From: a virus
DNA length: 64,000 bases
Virus record (IMG/VR): IMGVR_UViG_3300046167_000659
Location: 1-64,000 of that record
Reading direction: 5' to 3' (one strand)
Shown: piece by piece, positions 15,946 to 61,199 of the stretch
Numbering within the stretch: position 1 is the first letter of the stretch
How the letters are laid out: each line of letters begins with the position of its first letter
Translations under genes and position numbers: made by a program
Notes under the pieces: generated by a model
Told to the model about the DNA's origin: nothing
Seen by the model: only the letters and a program-made list of their open reading frames with translations
Database searches by the model: none

Positions 15946-17058
15946 ATGGCAAGAATTAAAACATATAACATCGATGCTGACATATCTTCAGAAGATAAAG
16001 TAGTAGGTACAGATGGAAACCCAGGTAATAACTTTGGAAAAACAAAAAACTTCACAATAGGGGCGTTATCTGGATTTATAGGGGCTGGATCTCAAGGTCC
16101 CGTTGGTCCCGCAGGAGAACCAGGAGCTACTGGACCTGCTGGAGCAGACGGAACAGACGGAGTAGACGGAGTAGATGGTGCACAAGGACCTGCTGGTAAT
16201 GACGGAGCAACTGGAGCACCTGGACCTGCTGGTCAAACAGGTCCTGCTGGGGCAACTGGAGCACAGGGTGCTACGGGTGACGTGGGTCTAACTGGAGCAA
16301 CTGGGGCTCAAGGAGCTGTAGGTCCTCAAGGAGCTATTGGTGCAACTGGTGCGCAAGGAGCTACTGGAGCAGATGGAACATCAATAAACGTATTAGGTAC
16401 TAAACCTACCGTAGCTGATTTACCCGCAACAGGTAATACAGTGGGAGATTTGTGGGTTATAGATCAAACAGGTGGAGGTGCCACGGCTGGTGATGGTTAT
16501 GTTTGGACTGCTGGAAATACTTGGTTGAACATTGGGCCTTTAAGAGGACCTCAAGGAATACAAGGCGTACAAGGTCTACAGGGAATTCAAGGCATTAAAG
16601 GAGATCAAGGTGATCAGGGACCACAAGGTATACAAGGTTTACAAGGGGAGCAGGGTTTACAAGGAGATCAAGGAGCTGCGGGAACAAACGGAACAAATGG
16701 AGAACAAGGAATACAGGGAATTCAAGGAATACAAGGTCAGCCTGGACAAAATGGTAGCAACGGCCCACAGGGTGAAACTGGAGCTCAAGGTGAAACCGGA
16801 GCGACTGGCCCGCAAGGCCCAATAGGATTGACAGGTCCTCCGGGAGCAGTAGAATCAGTTAACGCTGGGGTAGGAATAACTGTAACGCCAAATACTACAG
16901 GCAACGTAATAGTTTCGGCTCCAGATGCAGTTTTAAATAACCAAGATACTTTTACAACCCCTAAAGTGAAATACATCGTTTCTTTAACACAAGCGGAGTA
17001 TGATGGTTTAGTAAGCGGTGGAACAATAAACGCTAACACATTATATATAATATTATAA
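15946..17058 (+). CDS. Collagen-like tail fibre protein
   Basis: A 370-residue protein. Residues 1-45 (MARIKTYNIDADISSEDKVV) resemble the N-terminus of the protein at 23033 and probably anchor to the virion. Two Gly-X-Y blocks follow, about 50-147 and 198-295, rich in GPAG, GATG and GIQG triplets, separated by a non-collagen insert with a Trp-containing segment. The C-terminal 70 residues may be the trimerising or receptor tip. Collagen-like repeats in phage fibres form triple helices. Confidence 0.85.
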   Translation: MARIKTYNIDADISSEDKVVGTDGNPGNNFGKTKNFTIGALSGFIGAGSQGPVGPAGEPGATGPAGADGTDGVDGVDGAQGPAGNDGATGAPGPAGQTGPAGATGAQGATGDVGLTGATGAQGAVGPQGAIGATGAQGATGADGTSINVLGTKPTVADLPATGNTVGDLWVIDQTGGGATAGDGYVWTAGNTWLNIGPLRGPQGIQGVQGLQGIQGIKGDQGDQGPQGIQGLQGEQGLQGDQGAAGTNGTNGEQGIQGIQGIQGQPGQNGSNGPQGETGAQGETGATGPQGPIGLTGPPGAVESVNAGVGITVTPNTTGNVIVSAPDAVLNNQDTFTTPKVKYIVSLTQAEYDGLVSGGTINANTLYIIL

Positions 17059-18148: not shown

Positions 18149-19716
18149 ATGGAATTTAACAACCCTAGTCAGATTGTAAAAGATTTGACATTTGGCGATA
18201 AAGCCAATAGTAAAATAATGACAGGCGTCGAAAAATTAACAAGCGCAGTAAAAAGTACGTTAGGTGCTTCAGGAAAATGCGTAATATACGAAGATGCCTT
18301 AGGTAGACCGGTAATAACAAAAGACGGTGTAACCGTTGCAGAAAGCGTAGTCTTAATAGATCCGGTCGAAAATATAGGTGCAACCTTAATAAAGGAAGCC
18401 GCAAGCAATACAGTTAGAGAAGCGGGGGATGGTACAACAACAGCGACTGTCTTAGCGCACTCATTATTAAAAACAACAACAGAATCAGAGCATGAAGAAA
18501 CGGCTAGAAGCATTAAGAGCGGCATTGAAAAATGCAGCGAAAAAGTTATGGTTTATCTTGATAAAACCAGCATACCAGTTAAAGGGGAAATGCTTAAAAG
18601 CGTTGCTACAATTAGCTGCAACAACGATAAAGAACTTGGAGCCAAAATTGGCGAAGCATACGAAAAAGTTGGCAGAGATGGAGTCGTTTTAATGGAAGAG
18701 TCTGATACGAATGAAACTTATGTAGAATTCGTTGATGGCGCTCAAATTGATTCCGGTTTAAAGTCTCAGCACTTAGCAACCGACAAAGATAAACTTACAT
18801 GTACTTTAGATAACCCGTACGTGCTTATAATAGGATCTACAATACCTAACATCCGTAAGATACAAAGTGTCTTAGAGTTTATTATAAAAGAAAAGAGACC
18901 ACTACTTATTATAGCAGACATAGATCAACAGCCTTACGCTACTTTAGTAGCTAACAAGGTTAAAGGTAACATTAAAGGTCAATGTAATAGATCCTCCAGG
19001 GTTTGGGACCTACCAGGTTAGACTCCATGGAAGATTTAGCTTTTTTAACAGGGGCTAAGCTTATAAACGAGGAGCTAGGTGATGACTTAGATCTTATCGA
19101 GCCTTCTGTACTAGGTGAAGCCGTTAAAGCTGTTACTGATAATAAATCAACAGTAATGCAGGTTTACGACAAAGGTGAAGAACTGGAAGATAGAATTACA
19201 CATGTTAAAGAACAGATTAAAGATGAAAAAAATGGATTCTTTAAAATGAAACTAGAACAAAGGCTAGCTACTTTAGCAGGCACTGTAGGTATTGTAAGAG
19301 TTGGGGCTGATTCTAAGGTAGAGTTAAAAGAAAAGAAAGATAGAGTTGAAGATGCAGTTCACGCTACTAAAGCAGCCTTGAAAGAAGGTATTGTTGCCGG
19401 CGGTGGTGTAGCACTCTTAAATGCAGCAAACAACATTAAGCCTAAAAACAAAGGAGAGGAATTATTGCTCGAAGCTATAAAAGCTCCTTATAAAACTATA
19501 TTAGACAACGCTGGGCTTGACTTTCAAGACCTGAATAAAAAAGGCTGGGGTATAGATGTAGTAACAGGCAAGCCAGTGAACATGGTCAAAGCAGGTATTA
19601 TAGATCCGGTTTTGGTTACAAAAGCGGCGCTGAAAAATGCTGTGAGCGTAGTTAACACAATTGTGTCTGCAGATTGTATAATCAGTAATAAAAGGTTAGA
19701 CGATGCAAGCAATTAA
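18149..19716 (+). CDS. groEL: GroEL-type chaperonin, frameshifted twice
   Basis: Two frames make one chaperonin of about 520 residues, near the usual 545. The first holds KDGVTVAESV and AGDGTTTATVLAHSL (ATP site) and VGRDGVVLMEE; the second holds GIVAGGGVALLNAA and ends in the equatorial domain. The break is at the conserved PGFG segment: dropping one G at 18977-18978 and one C at 19013-19014 restores VNVIDPPGFGTYRLDSMED, aligned residue for residue with cellular GroEL. The short C-terminus lacks the Gly-Met tail. It would fold phage or host proteins with the adjacent GroES. Confidence 0.9.
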
Positions 19717-22496: not shown

Positions 22497-22637
22497 ATGA
22501 AATCAAAAGGATTAGGGGATTCAGTAGAAAAATTTACAAAAGCAACTGGTATTAAAAAAATTGTTGAAACAGTAAATCCCGACTGCGGCTGTGGTAAAAG
22601 AAAAGATAAGTTAAATAAAATATTTCCATATAAATGA
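22497..22637 (+). CDS. Micro-protein, 46 residues, unit 1 copy
   Basis: ATG at 22497; begins MKSKGLGDSVEKFTKATGIK and has PDCGCGKRKDKLNKIFPYK. Its stop overlaps the holin start (ATGA). Proteins of this kind precede holins in related phages, so a lysis-linked role is possible. Confidence 0.6.
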   Translation: MKSKGLGDSVEKFTKATGIKKIVETVNPDCGCGKRKDKLNKIFPYK

Positions 22638-23032
22638 AAAAGATTTGGCAATGGCTTACAGGTTCCGTCATAAAAGAAGTTGGCGAGGTTTTAGATAACC
22701 TTACGACTACTAAAGAAGAGAAACTAGAGGCTCAGCGCTTAATCACAGAGATACTAGAAAAAGCAGATAAAGAAGCTCAAGAGCAGGTTACAGCTAGGTG
22801 GAAGTCTGATATGGAGTCTGATAGCTTTTTATCTAAGAACATACGCCCTATGGTACTTATATACTTAACTGTTATATTTACTGTATGCGCGTTTTTTGAC
22901 GGTAACGTAGGAGAGTTCACTATAGCTGAAGAATACGTGCCAATATTTCAAACTTTACTAGTAACTGCATATGGAGCTTATTTTGTAGGTCGTACTTGGG
23001 AGAAGGCGAAAGCTATAACAAAAAAAGATTAA
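22634..23032 (+). CDS. Holin of the 3TM type, unit 1 copy
   Basis: A 132-residue protein. It starts with an amphipathic helix (MKKIWQWLTGSVIKEVGEVL), then a charged segment, then two hydrophobic stretches at about 78-96 and 104-122 (MVLIYLTVIFTVCAFF; TLLVTAYGAYFVG). This fits the GTA/3TM holin superfamily, where helix one is the amphipathic segment. It would open the inner membrane for the M15 endolysin encoded at 61811. Confidence 0.75.
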   Translation: MKKIWQWLTGSVIKEVGEVLDNLTTTKEEKLEAQRLITEILEKADKEAQEQVTARWKSDMESDSFLSKNIRPMVLIYLTVIFTVCAFFDGNVGEFTIAEEYVPIFQTLLVTAYGAYFVGRTWEKAKAITKKD

Positions 23033-23749
23033 ATGGCTAGAATTAGTACATACGCAATAGATACAGTAGTAACACTACTAGATAGATGGATTGGCACCGA
23101 TTCTAATAGCGGTAATGCTACAAAAAACTTTACAGCACAATCAATAGCGGACCTGTTTAACGACAATGGCTCCATAGGTATTGTTAATCAAAACAACTTT
23201 AAATTTCAAACCAACCTAACTGGAGGTAGAAGACCAGGTACAGTGAGTCTTATATCTGGAGGTGGAAATAATACTGCCTTTAGTGACTTAACTAGTTTTA
23301 GAATAAGCAAAGATTCTTTAGCTAATACTTTAGCTTCAAACTACCTACTTACACTAGTTGATGAACCAATCATGCTAGCTCAAGTAGATGACTTAAATAA
23401 TTTTGGCGTATACAAGCTTGATTCTTTAACACAAGACGTTACTGAAACAGATTTTTATAACGCCAATCTTACATTAATAGAATCAAATGGCTATTTGTTT
23501 TCTGAAGAAACTTATGGTTTAATAACTTATCCTAAAGCTAAAGAAGATGAAAAAGATAAGAACTATGTGCATCCACAAGACCAAGCATCTGCTACGTGGA
23601 CTGTTCAACACGACTTAAACAAATTTCCTTCAGTAACTACCGTTAATACAAATAATATAGAAATGTACGGTGAAGTTGTGTTCAATGACTTAAATAACTT
23701 AACAATAAACTTTTCAGCAGCGTTCTCAGGACAAGCTTTCATAAACTAA
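23033..23749 (+). CDS. Fibre-associated structural protein, unit 1 copy
   Basis: A 238-residue protein whose start (MARISTYAIDTVVTLLDRWI, then GTDSNSGNATKNFT) parallels the collagen-like fibre at 15946, implying a shared virion-attachment domain. The C-terminal 70 residues (ATWTVQHDLNKFPSVTTVNT) look like a beta-sandwich module frequent in phage fibres. It follows the holin with no gap. Confidence 0.65.
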   Translation: MARISTYAIDTVVTLLDRWIGTDSNSGNATKNFTAQSIADLFNDNGSIGIVNQNNFKFQTNLTGGRRPGTVSLISGGGNNTAFSDLTSFRISKDSLANTLASNYLLTLVDEPIMLAQVDDLNNFGVYKLDSLTQDVTETDFYNANLTLIESNGYLFSEETYGLITYPKAKEDEKDKNYVHPQDQASATWTVQHDLNKFPSVTTVNTNNIEMYGEVVFNDLNNLTINFSAAFSGQAFIN

Positions 23750-23762
23750 CAAAAACAAACTA

Positions 23763-24908
23763 ATGGCAATTAATTTTTTAAACAACGTTGATTACAATAA
23801 AAATCAACTTTTAAACCCAAGAATTCAAAACGAAGCAAACGACACCGCTGCTGGAACACCTGTAGAGGGTCAGTTATATTATAACACAACAAGCAACGTG
23901 CTTAAAGTAGGTAGAGAAGTAACACCTGTTACAAACCCTCCAACTTACCAATGGGCTGAAGTATCGAGCTCTTACGGATTCAGTTTAAGTGATAGTGCAA
24001 ACCCTGCTATAACCGGTTCGATAGCATCAGGCGACACTGTTAAAATAGCTGCAACTGAAGATTTAACATCTAATTTAACAGGTGAAACAACTACAGCTAA
24101 AACCCTTACTGTAGGCTTAAAAGTAGATGGAGGCGTTGGTATATCTGATAATTATGTGGTTAATCAAGGTTCGGCTACAGCTGCAGCGGATGATACAATA
24201 CCTTTCAACAACTACACGGATGTAGGCACTCCTGCTACAAGTACCAATGTGGTTAAGAAAACAACTTTTGGAAGTATACCAGTAGATGCTTTGACATTAG
24301 TTAAAAGCTATATTGATAGCTCTGTTACTGGAGGTTTAATATATCAAGGTGGTTATGATGCAGTCAATAACCAGCCTGATTTAACAACTTCGCCAAACAC
24401 TATTAAAAAAGGCTGGACTTACACAGTAACTGTAGGTGACACGTTTTTTGGAGAAGTTCTTGAGGTTGGGGATGTACTTATAGCAGAACAAGATGATCCA
24501 AGCTCTTTAGCGGACTGGACAACAGTTCAAAACAATATAGATATTGCTACAGCTGGAACTGACACTGGCGCTGGCGCCGCTGTCATTGGGATATCTCGCT
24601 ACGATGAAGACGACTTTACAGTTAGCGCCTCTGGTTTTGTAGAACTAAAATCAACGTCTGCAACTGGTGTAATTACAGCAGGTTCTTTATCTGGAACTGT
24701 GAATCACACTTTTGGATTAAATACATTAGTTCAAACTATAAACTCTTCTGGAGATACAGTGCACTGTGATGTTACTAGAACAACAACAAGTGGAGTGGGA
24801 ACCCCTTCAACTTCTGTAGCTACTATAGCTGCAGCAGAAGCAACAGACATTACTATCCTAGTTAAAAAAAGGAACAGTGTCTTTCAAAATGAAAGGCTAC
24901 GGATCTAA
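23763..24908 (+). CDS. Tail fibre protein, unit 1 copy with altered C-terminus
   Basis: A 381-residue protein beginning MAINFLNNVDYNKNQLLNPR, an N-terminus common to fibre adaptors. The body is Thr/Ser/Gly-rich beta structure. After TDITILV at the duplication junction the frame runs into copied DNA and ends KKRNSVFQNERLRI, whereas unit 2 ends QKIG. The unit 2 end continues into the unique flank and is therefore probably ancestral. Confidence 0.7.
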   Translation: MAINFLNNVDYNKNQLLNPRIQNEANDTAAGTPVEGQLYYNTTSNVLKVGREVTPVTNPPTYQWAEVSSSYGFSLSDSANPAITGSIASGDTVKIAATEDLTSNLTGETTTAKTLTVGLKVDGGVGISDNYVVNQGSATAAADDTIPFNNYTDVGTPATSTNVVKKTTFGSIPVDALTLVKSYIDSSVTGGLIYQGGYDAVNNQPDLTTSPNTIKKGWTYTVTVGDTFFGEVLEVGDVLIAEQDDPSSLADWTTVQNNIDIATAGTDTGAGAAVIGISRYDEDDFTVSASGFVELKSTSATGVITAGSLSGTVNHTFGLNTLVQTINSSGDTVHCDVTRTTTSGVGTPSTSVATIAAAEATDITILVKKRNSVFQNERLRI

Positions 24909-25223: not shown

Positions 25224-25364
25224 ATGAAATCAAAAGGATTAGGGGATTCAGTAGAAAAATTTACAAAAGCAACTGGTATTAAAAAAATTGTTGAAACAGT
25301 AAATCCCGACTGCGGCTGTGGTAAAAGAAAAGATAAGTTAAATAAAATATTTCCATATAAATGA
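25224..25364 (+). CDS. Micro-protein, 46 residues, unit 2 copy
   Basis: Second copy of the MKSKGLGDSVEKF gene, with the same ATGA coupling to the holin. Confidence 0.6.
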   Translation: MKSKGLGDSVEKFTKATGIKKIVETVNPDCGCGKRKDKLNKIFPYK

Positions 25365-25759
25365 AAAAGATTTGGCAATGGCTTACAGGTTCCGTCATAA
25401 AAGAAGTTGGCGAGGTTTTAGATAACCTTACGACTACTAAAGAAGAGAAACTAGAGGCTCAGCGCTTAATCACAGAGATACTAGAAAAAGCAGATAAAGA
25501 AGCTCAAGAGCAGGTTACAGCTAGGTGGAAGTCTGATATGGAGTCTGATAGCTTTTTATCTAAGAACATACGCCCTATGGTACTTATATACTTAACTGTT
25601 ATATTTACTGTATGCGCGTTTTTTGACGGTAACGTAGGAGAGTTCACTATAGCTGAAGAATACGTGCCAATATTTCAAACTTTACTAGTAACTGCATATG
25701 GAGCTTATTTTGTAGGTCGTACTTGGGAGAAGGCGAAAGCTATAACAAAAAAAGATTAA
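25361..25759 (+). CDS. Holin of the 3TM type, unit 2 copy
   Basis: Same 132-residue protein as 22634-23032. Two intact holin genes, if real, would raise holin dosage and could alter lysis timing. Confidence 0.75.
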   Translation: MKKIWQWLTGSVIKEVGEVLDNLTTTKEEKLEAQRLITEILEKADKEAQEQVTARWKSDMESDSFLSKNIRPMVLIYLTVIFTVCAFFDGNVGEFTIAEEYVPIFQTLLVTAYGAYFVGRTWEKAKAITKKD

Positions 25760-26476
25760 ATGGCTAGAATTAGTACATACGCAATAGATACAGTAGTAAC
25801 ACTACTAGATAGATGGATTGGCACCGATTCTAATAGCGGTAATGCTACAAAAAACTTTACAGCACAATCAATAGCGGACCTGTTTAACGACAATGGCTCC
25901 ATAGGTATTGTTAATCAAAACAACTTTAAATTTCAAACCAACCTAACTGGAGGTAGAAGACCAGGTACAGTGAGTCTTATATCTGGAGGTGGAAATAATA
26001 CTGCCTTTAGTGACTTAACTAGTTTTAGAATAAGCAAAGATTCTTTAGCTAATACTTTAGCTTCAAACTACCTACTTACACTAGTTGATGAACCAATCAT
26101 GCTAGCTCAAGTAGATGACTTAAATAATTTTGGCGTATACAAGCTTGATTCTTTAACACAAGACGTTACTGAAACAGATTTTTATAACGCCAATCTTACA
26201 TTAATAGAATCAAATGGCTATTTGTTTTCTGAAGAAACTTATGGTTTAATAACTTATCCTAAAGCTAAAGAAGATGAAAAAGATAAGAACTATGTGCATC
26301 CACAAGACCAAGCATCTGCTACGTGGACTGTTCAACACGACTTAAACAAATTTCCTTCAGTAACTACCGTTAATACAAATAATATAGAAATGTACGGTGA
26401 AGTTGTGTTCAATGACTTAAATAACTTAACAATAAACTTTTCAGCAGCGTTCTCAGGACAAGCTTTCATAAACTAA
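25760..26476 (+). CDS. Fibre-associated structural protein, unit 2 copy
   Basis: Same 238-residue protein as 23033-23749, with the MARISTYAIDT attachment-like N-terminus. Confidence 0.65.
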   Translation: MARISTYAIDTVVTLLDRWIGTDSNSGNATKNFTAQSIADLFNDNGSIGIVNQNNFKFQTNLTGGRRPGTVSLISGGGNNTAFSDLTSFRISKDSLANTLASNYLLTLVDEPIMLAQVDDLNNFGVYKLDSLTQDVTETDFYNANLTLIESNGYLFSEETYGLITYPKAKEDEKDKNYVHPQDQASATWTVQHDLNKFPSVTTVNTNNIEMYGEVVFNDLNNLTINFSAAFSGQAFIN

Positions 26477-26489
26477 CAAAAACAAACTA

Positions 26490-27605
26490 ATGGCAATTAA
26501 TTTTTTAAACAACGTTGATTACAATAAAAATCAACTTTTAAACCCAAGAATTCAAAACGAAGCAAACGACACCGCTGCTGGAACACCTGTAGAGGGTCAG
26601 TTATATTATAACACAACAAGCAACGTGCTTAAAGTAGGTAGAGAAGTAACACCTGTTACAAACCCTCCAACTTACCAATGGGCTGAAGTATCGAGCTCTT
26701 ACGGATTCAGTTTAAGTGATAGTGCAAACCCTGCTATAACCGGTTCGATAGCATCAGGTGACACTGTTAAAATAGCTGCAACTGAAGATTTAACATCTAA
26801 TTTAACAGGTGAAACAACTACAGCTAAAACCCTTACTGTAGGCTTAAAAGTAGATGGAGGCGTTGGTATATCTGATAATTATGTGGTTAATCAAGGTTCG
26901 GCTACAGCTGCAGCGGATGATACAATACCTTTCAACAACTACACGGATGTAGGCACTCCTGCTACAAGTACCAATGTGGTTAAGAAAACAACTTTTGGAA
27001 GTATACCAGTAGATGCTTTGACATTAGTTAAAAGCTATATTGATAGCTCTGTTACTGGAGGTTTAATATATCAAGGTGGTTATGATGCAGTCAATAACCA
27101 GCCTGATTTAACAACTTCGCCAAACACTATTAAAAAAGGCTGGACTTACACAGTAACTGTAGGTGACACGTTTTTTGGAGAAGTTCTTGAGGTTGGGGAT
27201 GTACTTATAGCAGAACAAGATGATCCAAGCTCTTTAGCGGACTGGACAACAGTTCAAAACAATATAGATATTGCTACAGCTGGAACTGACACTGGCGCTG
27301 GCGCCGCTGTCATTGGGATATCTCGCTACGATGAAGACGACTTTACAGTTAGCGCCTCTGGTTTTGTAGAACTAAAATCAACGTCTGCAACTGGTGTAAT
27401 TACAGCAGGTTCTTTATCTGGAACTGTGAATCACACTTTTGGATTAAATACATTAGTTCAAACTATAAACTCTTCTGGAGATACAGTGCACTGTGATGTT
27501 ACTAGAACAACAACAAGTGGAGTGGGAACCCCTTCAACTTCTGTAGCTACTATAGCTGCAGCAGAAGCAACAGACATTACTATCCTAGTGCAGAAAATAG
27601 GGTAA
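26490..27605 (+). CDS. Tail fibre protein, unit 2 copy, probable native form
   Basis: A 371-residue version of the fibre with the end TDITILVQKIG. It is identical to unit 1 up to the junction apart from a synonymous change at 26759. The large S74 fibre gene follows after 22 bases, so this is the original genomic context. Confidence 0.72.
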   Translation: MAINFLNNVDYNKNQLLNPRIQNEANDTAAGTPVEGQLYYNTTSNVLKVGREVTPVTNPPTYQWAEVSSSYGFSLSDSANPAITGSIASGDTVKIAATEDLTSNLTGETTTAKTLTVGLKVDGGVGISDNYVVNQGSATAAADDTIPFNNYTDVGTPATSTNVVKKTTFGSIPVDALTLVKSYIDSSVTGGLIYQGGYDAVNNQPDLTTSPNTIKKGWTYTVTVGDTFFGEVLEVGDVLIAEQDDPSSLADWTTVQNNIDIATAGTDTGAGAAVIGISRYDEDDFTVSASGFVELKSTSATGVITAGSLSGTVNHTFGLNTLVQTINSSGDTVHCDVTRTTTSGVGTPSTSVATIAAAEATDITILVQKIG

Positions 27606-52198: not shown

Positions 52199-55100
52199 AT
52201 GTTCGAATACGAAGGAAATGAATACTCATTAGAAGATGTAAAACAAGCTGCTTCAAATCTTGATATGGGATTTGACGAGTACGTTAAAAAGTATAATCTT
52301 AAAGAAAAGGGAAAAGCAAACGGTGTTGCACAACAGGATGCAACTGTAGCACCTCAACCGGAAATAGCATCCGAGAATATGGACTTAGAGCCGGAAAATG
52401 GTTCTTTGGATTTAAAAGAAATTGATCTTGACACGTATATAACCTTACAGCCACAGCAGAAAATGGGCGTTCCTTACGAGCGCAGAAAAGAGCTAAATAA
52501 AGAGCGTAGAAAAAGAGATTTTCAGATAAAAAAAGATAGAGCTACTTCAACAGAAGAAGCTAAGCTATTTAAGGATATGACTGAAGGTTATTTCAGTAAT
52601 CCTTCTTTATATGAAAACGTACAAGACAAAGGCTTCTTTAATAAATTAATTACTAAAATAGCATTTCCTACTTTAGAGTGGGGTACAGATGCTGGGGTTA
52701 GAGTTTTTGATGAAGAAAATATTGAAGCTAAAGGTAGGATAGATGGTACTGTGTCTGAGCTTAATAAAAATCCAGAATATAAAGAAGAAATAGTAGAAGG
52801 TTTAAAGAAAAGGTTTAAGTTTGAGCATCCTGACATGGAGCTTCCTGATGTCTTAGCTATAGATAACTTTGTAGACAACGCTATAGATAAGAAAATAAGC
52901 GAAGAGCGTAACATAATAATTACAAAAAGACAAGAAGCTAAAGAAAAAGACGAAGCAGTTGTTGATACATATAAAAAAGGATTGCCGCTATATATGTCTA
53001 AAGGTATAGTTTCTGAAGAAGAAGCACCTGGTATAAAAATAACGAATGAAATATTAGAGCTAGAAGAACAAAAAGAAAAATTACTAGAACAAGATCCTGC
53101 TTTAGACGCTAAAATAAAGGCTAAACAGAAAGAGCAAGAAGAAATATTTAAAAAAATTGATGAAAACTACACGTCTTACTTTGACATATCAACTAATAAA
53201 AGACTTACGGCTCTAGAGAAGCAAGCTAGAGAGGACGCTGGCGAAGAGGAAACTATGGTTGACAAATCTAAAGAATTAACAGCTTTAGAAAAGTTCTACT
53301 CTTCACAGCCTAGAGAGAAATTAAAAACACAATATTACGGCAACATATCTGATATTGAAAACTTAGAACAAGAATATAAAGATATATGGAATACGGTCTC
53401 AGCTGAAGACACTGATGTTTATGAAAAAATAAAAAATACTGATTTTTTCAAAAATTTAAGTAATAGAGAAAAGGCTATAGAGTCTTTAAACTACCTTAGC
53501 GATGAGCAAAGAGATAGAGCTAAAAAAGAACTAGGTTTTATTGATGAAGATTTAAAAACATCGTTATTAGAAGCTGAAGCTCTTAAAACAACCTTACTGC
53601 TCAATAGGGATCCAGCTAGCGTTAAATCAGACGGTGTTACTAGGTTTTTTGAATCTGCTGCTGAAGCCACTTTTGGTGAAAAAGATATAGTTCTAGATTT
53701 TGGTACTTCAAAAAGAAAAGAACTAGATCAGCTAGAAAAAACACTAAAAGATGCAGATATAGATCTTACTAAAGATCAAAAAGAAAATTTTGAAAGAAGC
53801 ATAGCTATGGAAGTGACTGAAGGCGTTGGTGCTTTTGTTCCTGAACTAGCTAAGTTCGCTGTCGCTAATAAAGCACAGGGCGCATTAGGTATGACTAAGG
53901 TTTTAGGTAACTTAATGAAGTCTAAAAAAACTATAGATAGAGTAAAAGGCTTTATGCTTGGAGCTGTTTTAGAAGAAGCTAAATTTAAAGCTGTAACAGT
54001 AGGTGAGTCTGAACTAGGTGCTGGTGCTTTCTTTTTTGTGGGTGGCGCTGGTGCTAGAGCTTTAACGCCTTTTAGATTTACAGGTAAAGCAGCTGCTTTT
54101 AATCCTGCGTTAGAAAAGATTGCTTTAGCAGGTGTTGGTGGAGCAACAGCTAGTGAAGTAGCTTTAGTAGGCGAAGGTTTTTTAAAGTCTTTAGAAGGCA
54201 ATGTTGACTTTGAAGCATATATGAACGAGAACTTTGGTGAAGATGCTAAAGCTATGAGAAGGTTTGCTGTAAACGTTGGAGTTTTCGGTTCTATTGGAGC
54301 AACTGGCATGAAAGGCACGGATTGGATGTCTATGTCTGGTAAGTACAAACTTCTTGACAAGCTTAAAAACGATTTATCTACTGGTGAATTAAATTCTTCT
54401 CAAGAAAAGCAGAAAATAAACAGCATAGAAACCTTAACAAGAGACATAGCTATATCGGAAAGAAGCTACGACAATCTTGTTATGTCTGATCAATTAGAGA
54501 ATAAAGCTAACGCTGAAAAAGCTTTAGCCGAAGGTAATCTTACTTTTATAGAAAAAAGACAAGCTAAAAAAGCTGTGTCAAGGGCTAATGCAAACATTGA
54601 CAGAATAAGAAGAAAAGTAAACACGTTTAAAACAAACGTTGAAAAAAGCGGAATACTTGTTGGTGATAAAAAACTAAAAGTAATTGTCACTGAAAATGGT
54701 AAAGACGCACAAGGTAGAGATCTTATAGCTAGTGACTCTAAAGCAGAGTATATATCAGAAAAAGATGGTATACCAATGAACGCTATAGTTGTTAACATAA
54801 GCAAAATGCGACCTGGCGTTGGAGGTCACGAGCTTGGTCACGCTTACTTTAAAGCTGCTTTTGACGCTAACCCTAAAGCTGCAGAAGCTCTTAGAAGTAA
54901 AATAGAGACTCAAGTAGAGCCTATTTTAGATCCATTTTTTAAAGAAGCAACAGGGTCAACATTTAAAGAATTTTTAGACAAGACGTACGAGAAAGATTTA
55001 ACAGCCGAAGAGTATGTTTTTAACGTTGTAGAGCAACTTTCTAAGCCTAAGTTTAGAGATGTTTTGTTGAAACAAGGTGTATTACCAGGTCTAAAAAGAG

Positions 55101-58100
55101 CTATAAACAATACAGCAAACTCTATGGGTCTTGGCTTTAAAGAAAAAGACCTTAAAACAGCTGGTGATGTTTTAGAGTTCTTAAGTAGTATAGAAGATAT
55201 AGCTAAAAGAGGTAGTGCTACAGCTTTAAAAAAGAAGTTTGATCAGTTTAGAACAGTTAAAGTGGATGGTAACAAACTTACTGATTTCCAAGGCAGTGAA
55301 ATAACACCTGAAAAAGCTGAAGAAGCAAGAGCATCTAAAGACTTAGAAGCGTCAGCAACCGATTTAATTAAAAAATACCAGACCAACAAGGAGGGTATGA
55401 CATCTAAAGAGTTGACCAATTTAAAAAGTCAATTTGTTAGTATAGGAGTAGAAGCTGTAAGTAGGTGGGCGGCTAAAAAAGGTGTATCTGTTAGTGCTAT
55501 TAAAGGTAATCCTGAAATAGCAGGTAAAATTTTAGATCAGCTTGGAAGTGTAACTAAAAACTACAAAGAGGTAAATCCAGTAACTAAACAGAAAAGAGAG
55601 CTTAGTACTTACATGGAAAGTTTTTTAGGATTAAGAGTTGGTACTAAAATAGTGGAAGAATACAGTAGAAAACTAAAGACTACAAGCGCTGATGCTGACT
55701 TCGTTAGAGAGATTGAAGATAAATCTTCCAGCGGAAACTTAAGTAAGAGAAAAGCTAAAGAAGAAGCTGAATACAGAGATCTAATAGACGTTAGAGAGTT
55801 TACACCCGCAAGAATAAAAAAAGAATTATTAGAAGAAGCCGTAGACGTTGGTAAAGACGCTGGTAGTGTTTCTAAGTTAACATATAAAACTACAGAAATT
55901 GATTATGCGCCAAAAGTAGCCGAAGCGCTGTTAGATATGCCTTATGATAGAGCTACCGGTAAATCTACGTTAAACTATGGTAAAGGCGGTGGCGCAGCTG
56001 AAGTTTCTAGAATGCAAGGTCTTTTTAGAAATATACAAGAGTTTAAAGAGTTTATAAAGACGATGCCAGAATACAACGTTGCTGGCCCAGAAACTGTACT
56101 TAAAACTATAGAAGGTCAAGAAAAAATTATAGATGTTTCACCTGACGCTAAAGGTTACGCCACAGGTTTAAACAACAAACTACTTAAATTGATGTACGAC
56201 AAGGTTAACGTTCAAATACCTGGTATATCATCTCCTAAAGGTAGAAGCTTAGGTAAAACGTCTCAAACTCAGGTGTGGAGATTAAAACCTGAGTTTAGAA
56301 AACCGTATGCAGAAACTTTAAGAAAATTACAGCAAGATATAGGTATTACTCCAGCTGGTGAGCTTAGTATACCCATGAAAGCTGCTAATAGAACTAAGTT
56401 CGGTACACTCTTACAGGGTTTAACAAAGGTATATGTTAGTAATCTTACAAACAAAATAGTAAGATCTAAGATTGAAGAATCTGGCATTAAAACAGCTAAG
56501 GGAACAAAACAGGTAATAGCTGATATTGCGGCTGGTAAGTCTAAGCGTATGGCTAGTAAAGATATTAAAGAAAATATAGCTAAGTTTAAGCCCAGCTTCT
56601 TAAAGGACCTAAAAGACATAAAAATGTATGAGGAAGGTGAGTCTGATTTTTACAACGCTCTATCATCTGGTATGAGTGTTGAGAAAGCTTTTAACTCTTC
56701 CTTTGATAAAACTTTTTTAACCAGTAAGAATGGCAAGCCTTTAAAAACTAAAAACGATTTAATAAAGTCTATTGAGTGGATTACTGGCGAATATGATAGG
56801 GCTAGTAGAGCTCTTTCTAAAGGCACTGAGCCAAAGTCACTTCAAAGATTTTTATACGAACAAGTTTCAGAGCAAAGAGCTATTGAGAACTTAAAGTACA
56901 TGTTAGATATAGGTAAAGACGGCATAGATTTTAACGACGCTAGTCAAATAAACGCTAGTGTAAAAGCGCTTGAAAAAGCTATTGGCGAAATATACAAAAA
57001 AAAGACAGACGCTGAACTCGCTGAAGCAGGTGCGTTTTTAGTTAAATCTTACGCTACTAACGCTAAAGTTGGTAGTGGTTTATTTGAGTGGGCTGAAACA
57101 GCGTTTGGAAGACAATTAGAACTATCAAATGGTAAAACAGGTACTCTTAGACAAAGTATATTTGGTAAAGCTGAGGATTTTATAGATCTTATTATAAAAC
57201 CTAACATGACTAACCCTGAGTCTATTAAAGTTGTTAGAAAACAAAAAAAGACTAAAGAAGGTCCTAGAATGGATTTTTCACATGTGGAGTTTAATGGTGA
57301 AAGAATAGATGTAGAAAGAGCTAAGCAAAGCTCAACAGCTGTGAAAGCTGCTATAAAAGAGGTTAAGGAAAGCGGCGTGATGTCTAAGGAAACACTAGAC
57401 ACTTCTTTAGACTACGCTAACTCTAATAGAGACTTATTTGTAGACATACTAGAGCAATTTAAGGAAAATGGAGACAGAAATGCCTCGGGTATGTTTTTAT
57501 CAGGAAGTACGTCTTCTATGGAAGGCATACTAAGAGCCGCAGCTAACCTAAACAGTATTGCTATAAAAGGTAAAGATTTCAACCCTGACAACTACAGGTA
57601 TGAACACAACCCTCCAGCAAACGTCATGAAAGTTTACGCTGTAGATTACTTAAATGGCAATATAACCAAGGCTGAACTTAGAGCTAAGCTAAACGACTAC
57701 AACGCTAGTATTATCCCTAAGGAAATGGATAATATTATAAACGAAAAATACCAAAGCTCCCTGCCTTTAGAAGCTATTATAAACACTTGGAAAAGATATT
57801 ATAACTTTAGTCACTACGGTAGAGACATAACGGAGCTTACTCTTTACGAAAAGCAAGCTGATGGAACTTATACAACTACTAGAAAAGGAGCTGGGTTTGA
57901 ACAAGCCTATAAAGACGCTCAATCTGCCTTAAAGCAAAACACGTCTACAAAAGCTTCTAAGGAATTTTTTGAAAAACCTAAAAGCGTTCAGGAAAGCATA
58001 GAAAACTTAAAATCCTTAGACAAAGCTTTAAAAGCCGGTAATGACGCTAAAGCCCCTGTTAAAAAGATTAGAGTGTTTGACTTTGACGACACGTTAGCTA

Positions 58101-61100
58101 GATCTAACAGTAAAGTAAATTATACTGCACCAAATGTAGAAGGTGGCTTCTCGCAAGGTGCTAATAAATATAAAGCTATATTTATGGTTGGTGGTCCTGG
58201 AGCTGGTAAAACCAATATAGGTAAAGGATTACAATTAGGTAGACGTGGATACAAAGTAGTTAATCAAGATATAGCTCTAGAGGCTATGAAAGCAGAATCT
58301 GGTTTACCTGCCAAAGAAAGCGAATACAATAAAGAACAAAGATCTATGAGATCTAAGCTTGGCGCTGCAGCTAGAAAAGCAGCTGTAGCCAAGTTTGATA
58401 AGTATGCTAAAAATGGAGACGGCATGGTCATTGATGGTACTGGTGCTTCTTACAACGCTACAATGAAAAAAGTAAAACAACTTGAAGACGCAGGTTTTGA
58501 AGTTCACATGGTCGTAGCTAATACACCTCTTGAAACTGCCATATCAAGAAACAAGGCTAGAGTAGAAAGATCTTTACCTGATTTTGTTGTTAGAAAAACG
58601 TGGGAGCAAGTGCAAGAAAGCGCTAAGAAGTATAGAGAAGATTTTTCTGATAGATTGTATGAGATCGAAACAACTGATATAGGTTTTGGCGAAGCACTTC
58701 CTGAAAGGTTTTTACAGAAGGTTTACTCAGGTATAACAAGAAATAAAGTTGGTAAAATCAATGCATCTGAGTTTGCAAAGCAATCCGATTTATTAGAAAG
58801 TCAAGGAGCTAAGTTTGATTTTAGAGAATTTAGTAAAGTTATAGACGGAGAAAAAGGACCTTTGTTTAGTGTAGCTGAAAAAATAGCTGCAGCAAGAGGA
58901 ACTGAAGATGTATTTATATTAACCGCTAGACCACCTGAGTCTGCTGTAGAGATACAGAAATTCATGAAAGAGTCTGGTATATCAATACCACTTGAAAACA
59001 TAACTGGATTAGGTGATGGTACTGCTAAAGCTAAAGCTAAATGGGTTTTAGATAAAGCAGGTGAAGGTTATAATGATTTTTACTTTGCAGATGACGCTAT
59101 TAAAAACGTTAAAGCCGTTAAAGACATACTAGGTCAAATAGATGTAAAGTCAAAAGTACAACAAGCTAAAGCGTCTAAAGACATAGATCTTAGCAAAACG
59201 TTTAACGAATACTTGGAGCTTAAAACTGGTATTGGAGCTCAAAAGAAATACGCTAGAGTAAAAGGCGAGGTTGCTGGAAAAGGAAAAGGTAAATTAAACT
59301 TTTTTGTTCCTTATTCTGCCAATGATTTTACAGGTTTGCTATACACAACTTTAGCTAAGGGTAAAAAAGGTGAAGCTCAAATGCAGTTTTACAAAGAAAC
59401 AATGCTGGACCCTTACGCTAGAGCTATGAATAACATATCTAGAGACAGAATCGCTATGCTAAACGACTTTAACGCATTAAAAAAAGCAAATAAACTCTGT
59501 ACCTAAAAATCTAAAGAAAAAACTACCTGGAGAACCTTTTACCCAAGAGCAAGCTATTAGAGTTAACTTATGGAGTAAGCAAGGTATGGAAGTTCCTGGC
59601 TTAAGTAAGGCGGATTTAAAATCACTTAACGAATTTGTAGAAAAATCTCCAGAGCTAAGCTCCTTTTCAGATCAGTTATCAAACATATTAAAAGGAGATC
59701 AATACGCTAAACCTGGAGAAGGTTGGGTTACTGGTACAATTACCACAGATTTACTACAAACTTTAAATACAACTAAGAGAGCTAAATACTTAGAGCCTTG
59801 GAAGCAAAACGTTAGTGAAATATTTTCTGAGCAAAACTTAAACAAGCTTGAAGCTGCCTTTGGTAAAAATTATAGATCTTCTATGGAAGGTATATTGAAA
59901 CGTATGGAGACTGGTAGAAATAGAGGTAACAATGCAGATAAGTTTTCAGGCAAGCTAGTCGATTGGTTGACAGGTAGTATTGGTGTGACTATGTTCTTTA
60001 ACACTAGATCAGCAGTACTACAGACGCTTTCTTCTTTTAACTATTTAAACTTTAAAGACAACAATATATTTGCCGCAGGAAAAGCTTTTGCTAATCAAAA
60101 ACAATACTGGAAGGATTTTTCTACATTGATGAACTCTGATTTCTTAAAAGAAAGAAGAAGTGGTTTACGTATAAATGTAAACGAAGCAGACATTGCTGAT
60201 ATGGCTAAGAAAGGTGGCGTAAGAGGTGTTGTTAATAAGCTTCTTGAATTTGGTTTTACACCAACGCAGGTTGCTGATAGTTTTGCTATAGCATCTGGAG
60301 GTTCTACTTATTACAGAAATAGAATAAAAAAATACGTGAAAGAAGGTATGAATGAGGCTGCTGCAGAAAAGCAAGCTCTTAAAGACTGGAGAGAAACATC
60401 GGAAGAAAACCAACAGTCATCTAGACCTGACAGAATATCAGCTCAACAATCTAGTGATTTAGGTAGAGTTGTTTTAGCTTTTGCTAACACTCCTATGCAG
60501 TACAACCGTATAATGAAAAAAGCCTATATGGATCTTAAAGATGGTAGAGGTAGTAAAAAAGAAAACATATCAAAAATACTTTATTACGGAGCTGTTCAAA
60601 ACTTGATCTTTAACGCTCTTCAAAATGCTTTGTTTGCGATAGCTTTTGATGAAGATGATGAAATGTCTGAGCAAGAGAAACAAAGTTCTTATAGAACATT
60701 AAACGGTATGGCAGATTCTGTTATGAGAGGTTCTGGTTACGTAGGTGCTATAGCTAGTGTCTTAAAAAACACGGCTATAAAGCTAAACACTGAGCTTGAT
60801 AAAAAACGACCAAACATAGAAAGAGTCTTAGTTTCTGACTTGTTAAAAGTATCACCACCTTTATCAGCTAAAGTTTCACAGATTCAAAACGCTTCTAGAG
60901 CTTACCAATGGAATAAAAATGAAATGATGGAAAAAGGTTTTAGTTTAGATAACCCAGCTTATTTAGCTGGCGGTCAAGTTATATCCGCAGCTACTAACTT
61001 ACCATTAGATAGATTAATTAAGAAGGTAAATAATATAGATGCTGCTTTGGGAGAGAATGTAGAAGAATGGCAAAGAATTGCTTTGCTAGCAGGTTGGAAT

Positions 61101-61199
61101 GAATGGAATTTGGGTATGCAGGAAACTAGTAAAAAAACAAAAAAATCAAAGAAAACTAAAGGCATAAGTAGAAAACTTAAAAAAAGAAAATTAAGATAA
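52199..61199 (+). CDS. Giant polyvalent ejection protein (zincin, HAD phosphatase with nested P-loop kinase), frameshifted once
   Basis: About 3,000 codons. Residues 1-40 (MFEYEGNEYSLEDVKQAASN) are an ejection-protein-like start. A zincin lies at 877-881 (HELGH in VGGHELGHAYFKAAF). A HAD phosphatase starts at VFDFDDTLA (1959-1967), is interrupted by a P-loop kinase (GGPGAGKT, 1998-2005; VIDGTGAS later), then resumes with LTARPPES (about 2242) and FADDAIKN (about 2297). The C-terminal 550 residues, helical with FANTPMQYNRIMKKAYMD, recall the end modules of polyvalent phage proteins. The frame breaks near 59479-59494 (one extra A). Such proteins are thought to enter with the DNA and counter host responses. 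Confidence 0.85.

Follow-up and report, generated by a model that had tools for sequence, protein, structure and literature searches.

A P-loop kinase nested in the flap of a HAD phosphatase of a giant phage protein, at a site that exchanges whole domains

The window analysed here is a stretch of 64,000 nucleotides (positions 1 to 64,000 of the 66.6 kb virus record IMGVR_UViG_3300046167_000659) from a marine phage of bacteria. It encodes a giant protein in which the motifs of a HAD phosphatase stand on either side of a P-loop kinase, raising the question of whether the two form one enzyme for healing nucleic acid ends, in the manner of the T4 polynucleotide kinase-phosphatase (Pnkp), or are joined in some other way. 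The parts of the giant protein located below lie on the + strand.

The ORF for the giant protein (52199 to 59506) is placed after portal, capsid, tail and gp14-like genes and is 2435 aa long as it stands. A single-base difference near 59484 parts it from an ORF at 59586 to 61199, which in close relatives lies in the same frame and continues the protein to about 3000 aa. The 2435-aa ORF is therefore probably truncated, and since the frame continues in the relatives, the HAD/kinase module is internal to the giant protein rather than C-terminal. The one-base difference is seen in the 59440 to 59600 region against L001 (94% identical) and L014, where mutation, recoding and assembly error are alike possible. 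The same protein carries a zincin-type metallopeptidase motif, GGHELGHAYF (54821 to 54850), assigned from the motif and without a Pfam match. As in phage polyvalent proteins, several enzymes are encoded in one giant chain among virion morphogenesis genes, and the position beside the portal, capsid and gp14-like genes suggests that the protein is likely to be packaged in the virion and injected.

The terminase of the phage is nearest to that of an uncultured podovirus and next to those of flavobacterial podoviruses, and the genome also encodes an ATP-dependent DNA ligase and a tRNA-Gln. Elsewhere in the window a GroEL-like chaperonin is found in two overlapping ORFs (18149 to 19716) with a frameshift near 19003; the relative MW202828 has groEL as a single ORF, together with a GroES-like gene. 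At 15946 to 17058 a collagen-repeat protein (PF01391) precedes a protein with a Fib_succ_major domain, and in the tail-fibre region a three-gene block appears, by ORF sizes, to be duplicated in tandem (22634 to 24908 and 25361 to 27605; 132/238/381 and 132/238/371 aa).

Along the giant protein, HAD motif I (DFDDTLA, residues 1961-1967; 58079 to 58099) is followed by a complete P-loop domain (about 1990-2180) and then by motif II (LTARPPES, 2241-2248; 58919 to 58942), a candidate motif III (KxxW, with K2279 and W2282; 59033 to 59044; the invariant K344 and W347 of the alignment) and motif IV (FADDAIKN, 2296-2303; 59084 to 59107). By motifs and AlphaFold, the N-terminal piece of the HAD domain (residues 1940-1978; 58016 to 58132) comprises its first strand, motif I and the first strand of the flap hairpin, and the C-terminal piece as modelled by AlphaFold (residues 2182-2330; 58742 to 59188) runs from the second flap strand on. 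Between these two strands alignment, AlphaFold and comparison of modules place an insert of about 203 aa containing the kinase (residues ~1979-2181; 58133 to 58741). The AlphaFold model, built from a 61-row alignment (pLDDT 90.7, pTM 0.79), shows the kinase (model residues 57-244, protein residues 1992-2179) nested between short strands at 38-43 and 247-252. In separately modelled insert-free relatives the same strands (38-41 and 47-50) pair into a hairpin whose turn reads MPDGTT, and the later HAD elements of the nested and empty models agree one for one once shifted by 202 residues. This is the flap hairpin after motif I, where enzymes of the HAD superfamily carry a C1 cap. The nesting of a P-loop kinase within a HAD phosphatase, proposed in a preliminary description from motif order, is thus borne out by the predicted fold, and its motifs and coordinates are confirmed. 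Nor is the nesting a product of chance, because relatives are encoded at 550 viral loci, of the 425 family loci found by tblastn 424 have motifs I, II and IV intact, and dN/dS in close pairs lies between 0.03 and 0.33 (0.05-0.33 for the HAD, 0.03-0.19 for the kinase).

A Rossmannoid fold with motifs I (DxD), II (T/S), III (K) and IV (DD) places the outer domain in the HAD superfamily. Both aspartates of motif I are present in all 248 distinct modules accepted by the motif search, a search whose pattern partly conditions the conservation counts of individual HAD residues. Motif I reads DFDYTAA in L046 and L055, both of which carry a 46-aa insert. None of the Pfam HAD models scored above threshold in the window protein; the insert-free relatives match DUF2608 (one of them above the cut-off), HAD models weakly and PHROG_415 (5.7e-11). 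A PDB sequence search with a profile of the empty HAD gave nothing useful, and when the HAD and the complete giant protein were compared by tblastn with 50,697 phage records, relatives of the kinase were returned and none of the HAD. Modules L261-L266 come from contigs binned to Aliivibrio, Bacteroidetes, Ilumatobacteraceae, Woesearchaeota and Flavobacteriaceae MAGs, and are probably misbinned phage contigs.

The inserted domain carries a Walker A motif (GGPGAGKT, 1998-2005; 58190 to 58213), the sequence VVNQD (58256 to 58270), whose invariant D2024 aligns with the general base of Pnkp (D35 in T4), a DGTGAS segment (2079-2084; 58433 to 58450) aligned with T4 SDTNLN, and a lid, RNKARVER (2117-2124; 58547 to 58570), with R2117, N2118, R2121 and R2124 invariant in the alignment. 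Across 29 diverse kinases G1998, G2001, G2003, K2004, D2024, DGTGxS, R2117, R2121 and R2124 are invariant. One subgroup has GKG in place of GK[ST], a P-loop variant also found in adenylate kinases. Pfam assigns residues 1990-2142 to AAA_33 (1.1e-15, above the cut-off) and Zeta_toxin (1.1e-11), and CPT matches too. By its Walker A motif, catalytic aspartate and lid arginines the domain belongs to the AAA_33/PNK group of P-loop kinases. With catalytic residues kept and purifying selection on both, the HAD and the kinase are very probably both active enzymes.

By VIA-align both halves come nearest to the halves of Pnkp, with a tie for the kinase and a different Foldseek ranking for the phosphatase. 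With the empty HAD as query, the 3'-phosphatase of T4 Pnkp is the top structural match (Z 12.5), Pnkp1 and T4 Pnkp again follow at 11.7, 11.6 and 11.0 (VIA-align), and unrelated HADs score from Z 11.0 downward; by Foldseek, other HAD phosphatases (effector HADs of bacteria) come first. The HAD profile matches Pnkp at 74% (E 2.8e-5), against 9.7% for the control NT5C-type HADs. For the kinase, Clostridium thermocellum Pnkp is the top match by sequence as well as by structure, where its Z of 17.1 ties with that of O-phosphoseryl-tRNA kinase (PSTK, 16.6), followed by zeta toxin at 14.5 and T4 Pnkp at about 14. A profile of the nested module aligns with T4-type Pnkp over 262 columns (98.6%, E 5.6e-16), which take in, in this order, the kinase and motifs II-IV of the HAD, so that motif I alone differs in place. 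The substrate-binding residues are partly matched. Among the T4 phosphatase residues compared (R176, R213, R246, D254 and K258), R213 has its counterpart in LTAR, T2242 and R2244 aligning with S211 and R213 of T4, while R176, R246 and D254 (R175, R245 and D253 in the numbering of the Pnkp phosphatase set, in which they are invariant) have none in the profile alignment, possibly because they are misaligned there. In all 29 kinases the acceptor-binding arginine of T4 Pnkp (R38, three after D35) is replaced by leucine or isoleucine; to our knowledge mammalian PNKP likewise lacks this arginine, and its absence is thus not decisive.

The 248 distinct modules were compared at the site that holds the kinase. 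The HAD is intact throughout, and in 165 modules the flap hairpin is empty, with a distance of 77-78 from motif I to LTAR. The remaining modules hold the kinase (45), a helical-looking insert of 43-47 aa (18), an ART-like insert of 131-139 aa (13) or, more rarely, inserts of 143-147 aa (3), 184 aa (3) and 69 aa (1). Every insert occupies the same turn of the hairpin, and BLAST found no link among the six families. The 131-139 aa insert owes its ART label to ART-PolyVal matches below the cut-off (E 0.005-0.11) together with an H/N, Tyr, Asp pattern, and a PDB search with its profile was negative; the 184-aa insert was called ART-like by eye, without profile support. In a tree built from 124 HAD cores, with the insert columns left out, the state of the slot changes at least 26 times (shuffled mean 52.9); for the kinase label there are 9 changes, of which no fewer than 8 are forced by well-supported branches. 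Exchange is visible at the DNA level too. In L010, which has the kinase, and L045, which has a 46-aa insert, the flanking DNA is mostly 94-98% identical on the left up to the slot and 86-94% on the right, with abrupt breakpoints at the slot itself; L186/L190 and L067/L069 are similar close pairs with differing contents. Given these state changes and near-identical flanks around different inserts, the site has been exchanged repeatedly while the HAD was kept, and the turn of the flap hairpin is very probably an exchange slot for whole domains. Two different kinase-nested HAD modules, L021 and L037, were also seen on opposite strands of one 50-kb contig (IMGVR_UViG_3300025131_000066), and are either paralogues or a product of chimeric assembly.

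How far does the likeness to Pnkp extend to function? The preliminary description saw in the module the logic of end-healing enzymes and suggested that nicked tRNA or DNA could be repaired by it as the phage enters. Spelled out, this reading makes the module a rearranged Pnkp, a single unit whose 5'-OH kinase and 3'-phosphatase would heal such ends and leave the sealing to a ligase. Pnkp provides the best matches to both halves in structure and profile, the PHROG names of both halves read 'polynucleotide kinase', and the phage has the ATP-dependent DNA ligase and tRNA-Gln noted above. However, one healing enzyme would be expected to be kept together and to travel with a ligase, and neither is seen: two thirds of the HADs (165/248) are without the kinase, others hold unrelated domains at its site, and a DNA ligase is no commoner in kinase-bearing records (10/22) than in others (14/28), though records may be incomplete. 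No RNA ligase was found with the module, matches to RNA-ligase models falling only at the DNA ligases. The phosphatase arginines and aspartate without visible counterpart and the L/I at the T4 acceptor arginine also speak against this reading. Thus the resemblance of each half to Pnkp stands, the proposal that the two work as one end-healing unit is unlikely, and a role in tRNA or DNA end repair is possible. Since the slot is mostly empty or otherwise filled, we regard the kinase as an exchangeable payload rather than one indispensable half of an enzyme for end healing.

A similarly doubtful alternative is that the kinase is a small-molecule, protein or aminoacyl-tRNA phosphotransferase, of zeta-toxin, CPT or PSTK type, acting as an injected effector that modifies the host, with the HAD an unrelated phosphatase serving as scaffold. 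The Pfam matches to Zeta_toxin and CPT, the tie in Z with PSTK and the ART-like effector domains found in the same slot are consistent with it, as is gp53 of Agrobacterium phage Atu_ph07, where a relative of the kinase adjoins ART-like and other slot-type domains. Yet D2024 is followed by I-x-L/I in the 29 kinases, so that the DxxR motif, which we take to be that of zeta toxin (UNAG kinase) and PSTK, is absent, and it is C. thermocellum Pnkp that comes top in both sequence and structure. Far less probable is a true HAD cap, in which the kinase would gate or phosphorylate the HAD active site like the N domain of P-type ATPases. The insertion lies exactly in the flap hairpin and P-type ATPase HAD cores are among the structural matches, but empty HADs keep all their catalytic residues and the slot accepts unrelated folds. 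An assembly chimera might be suspected in a contig with two frameshift-like differences; it is refuted by the same nesting in dozens of independent contigs from different samples.

Because the kinase and HAD are not kept together, show no link to a ligase and match the Pnkp residues only in part, we favour a chassis with payloads as the probable explanation. Here a HAD most like the Pnkp 3'-phosphatase, near the C-terminal end of the giant protein as read in the window, would carry in its slot a phosphotransferase of the Pnkp clade. The giant protein would form part of the virion and enter the cell with the phage DNA, and early in infection the HAD would strip phosphates and the kinase add one to an acceptor, most likely a nucleic acid end or a nucleotide. 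The tie of the kinase with PSTK and the other HADs placed first by Foldseek weigh against so Pnkp-like an account, and that one or both of the enzymes act on nucleic acid ends is put forward tentatively, at somewhat less than an even chance. On this chassis-and-payload explanation the slot contents would be largely independent payloads, and the HAD flap probably serves as a recombination-driven socket in an injected protein, the phosphatase being the constant chassis in which complete effector enzymes (the kinase, two ART-like kinds and others) are swapped while the HAD domain itself stays whole. The slot could instead keep functionally matched partners. In either case the modules form a natural series in which one phosphatase has at its cap site either no insert or one of several unrelated folds, in some cases between near-identical flanks, and the tolerance and exchange of inserted domains in enzymes is therefore directly testable. 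They also suggest that abundant marine phages have a modular set of enzymes which are probably injected to act early in infection and which include a rearranged kinase-phosphatase.

In the open-access literature, outside which most subscription journals lie, we found no description of a P-loop kinase within a HAD domain or of this slot. T4 Pnkp (PseT) and bacterial Pnkp are alike in joining a Pnkp-clade kinase and a HAD phosphatase in one chain. In Pnkp, however, the kinase stands in series with a complete phosphatase, whereas here it lies between motif I and motif II, is optional and belongs to a giant structural-type protein, and several substrate-binding residues are not visibly conserved. 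The N domain of P-type ATPases is an ATP-binding insert after HAD motif I (a C1 cap), and C1 caps are usually fixed within a family; C1-capped HADs share the insertion of a domain in the flap, but in the present family the site is empty or swapped among unrelated folds between close relatives. The closest kinase relatives from isolated phages, those of HTVC008M, Melnitz and Atu_ph07 (PHROG_12810 and PHROG_505; 32-36% identity), stand alone in HTVC008M and in series with other domains in Atu_ph07, and not inside a HAD. In Atu_ph07 gp53 the accompanying domains are ART-like and of the 145-aa type, their likeness to slot inserts being judged by eye. The text of the polyvalent-protein survey of Iyer et al. 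2017 (PMC5512222) mentions no phosphatase, HAD domain or polynucleotide kinase, and describes the ART His/Tyr/Asp pattern. Like the proteins surveyed there, the family described here combines a giant multidomain chain with a zincin motif, and includes ART-like relatives with that pattern (PMC5512222). The ART-like slot contents and the domains of Atu_ph07 gp53 are compatible with a common pool of effectors for early infection, of the sort on which polyvalent proteins draw (PMC5512222).
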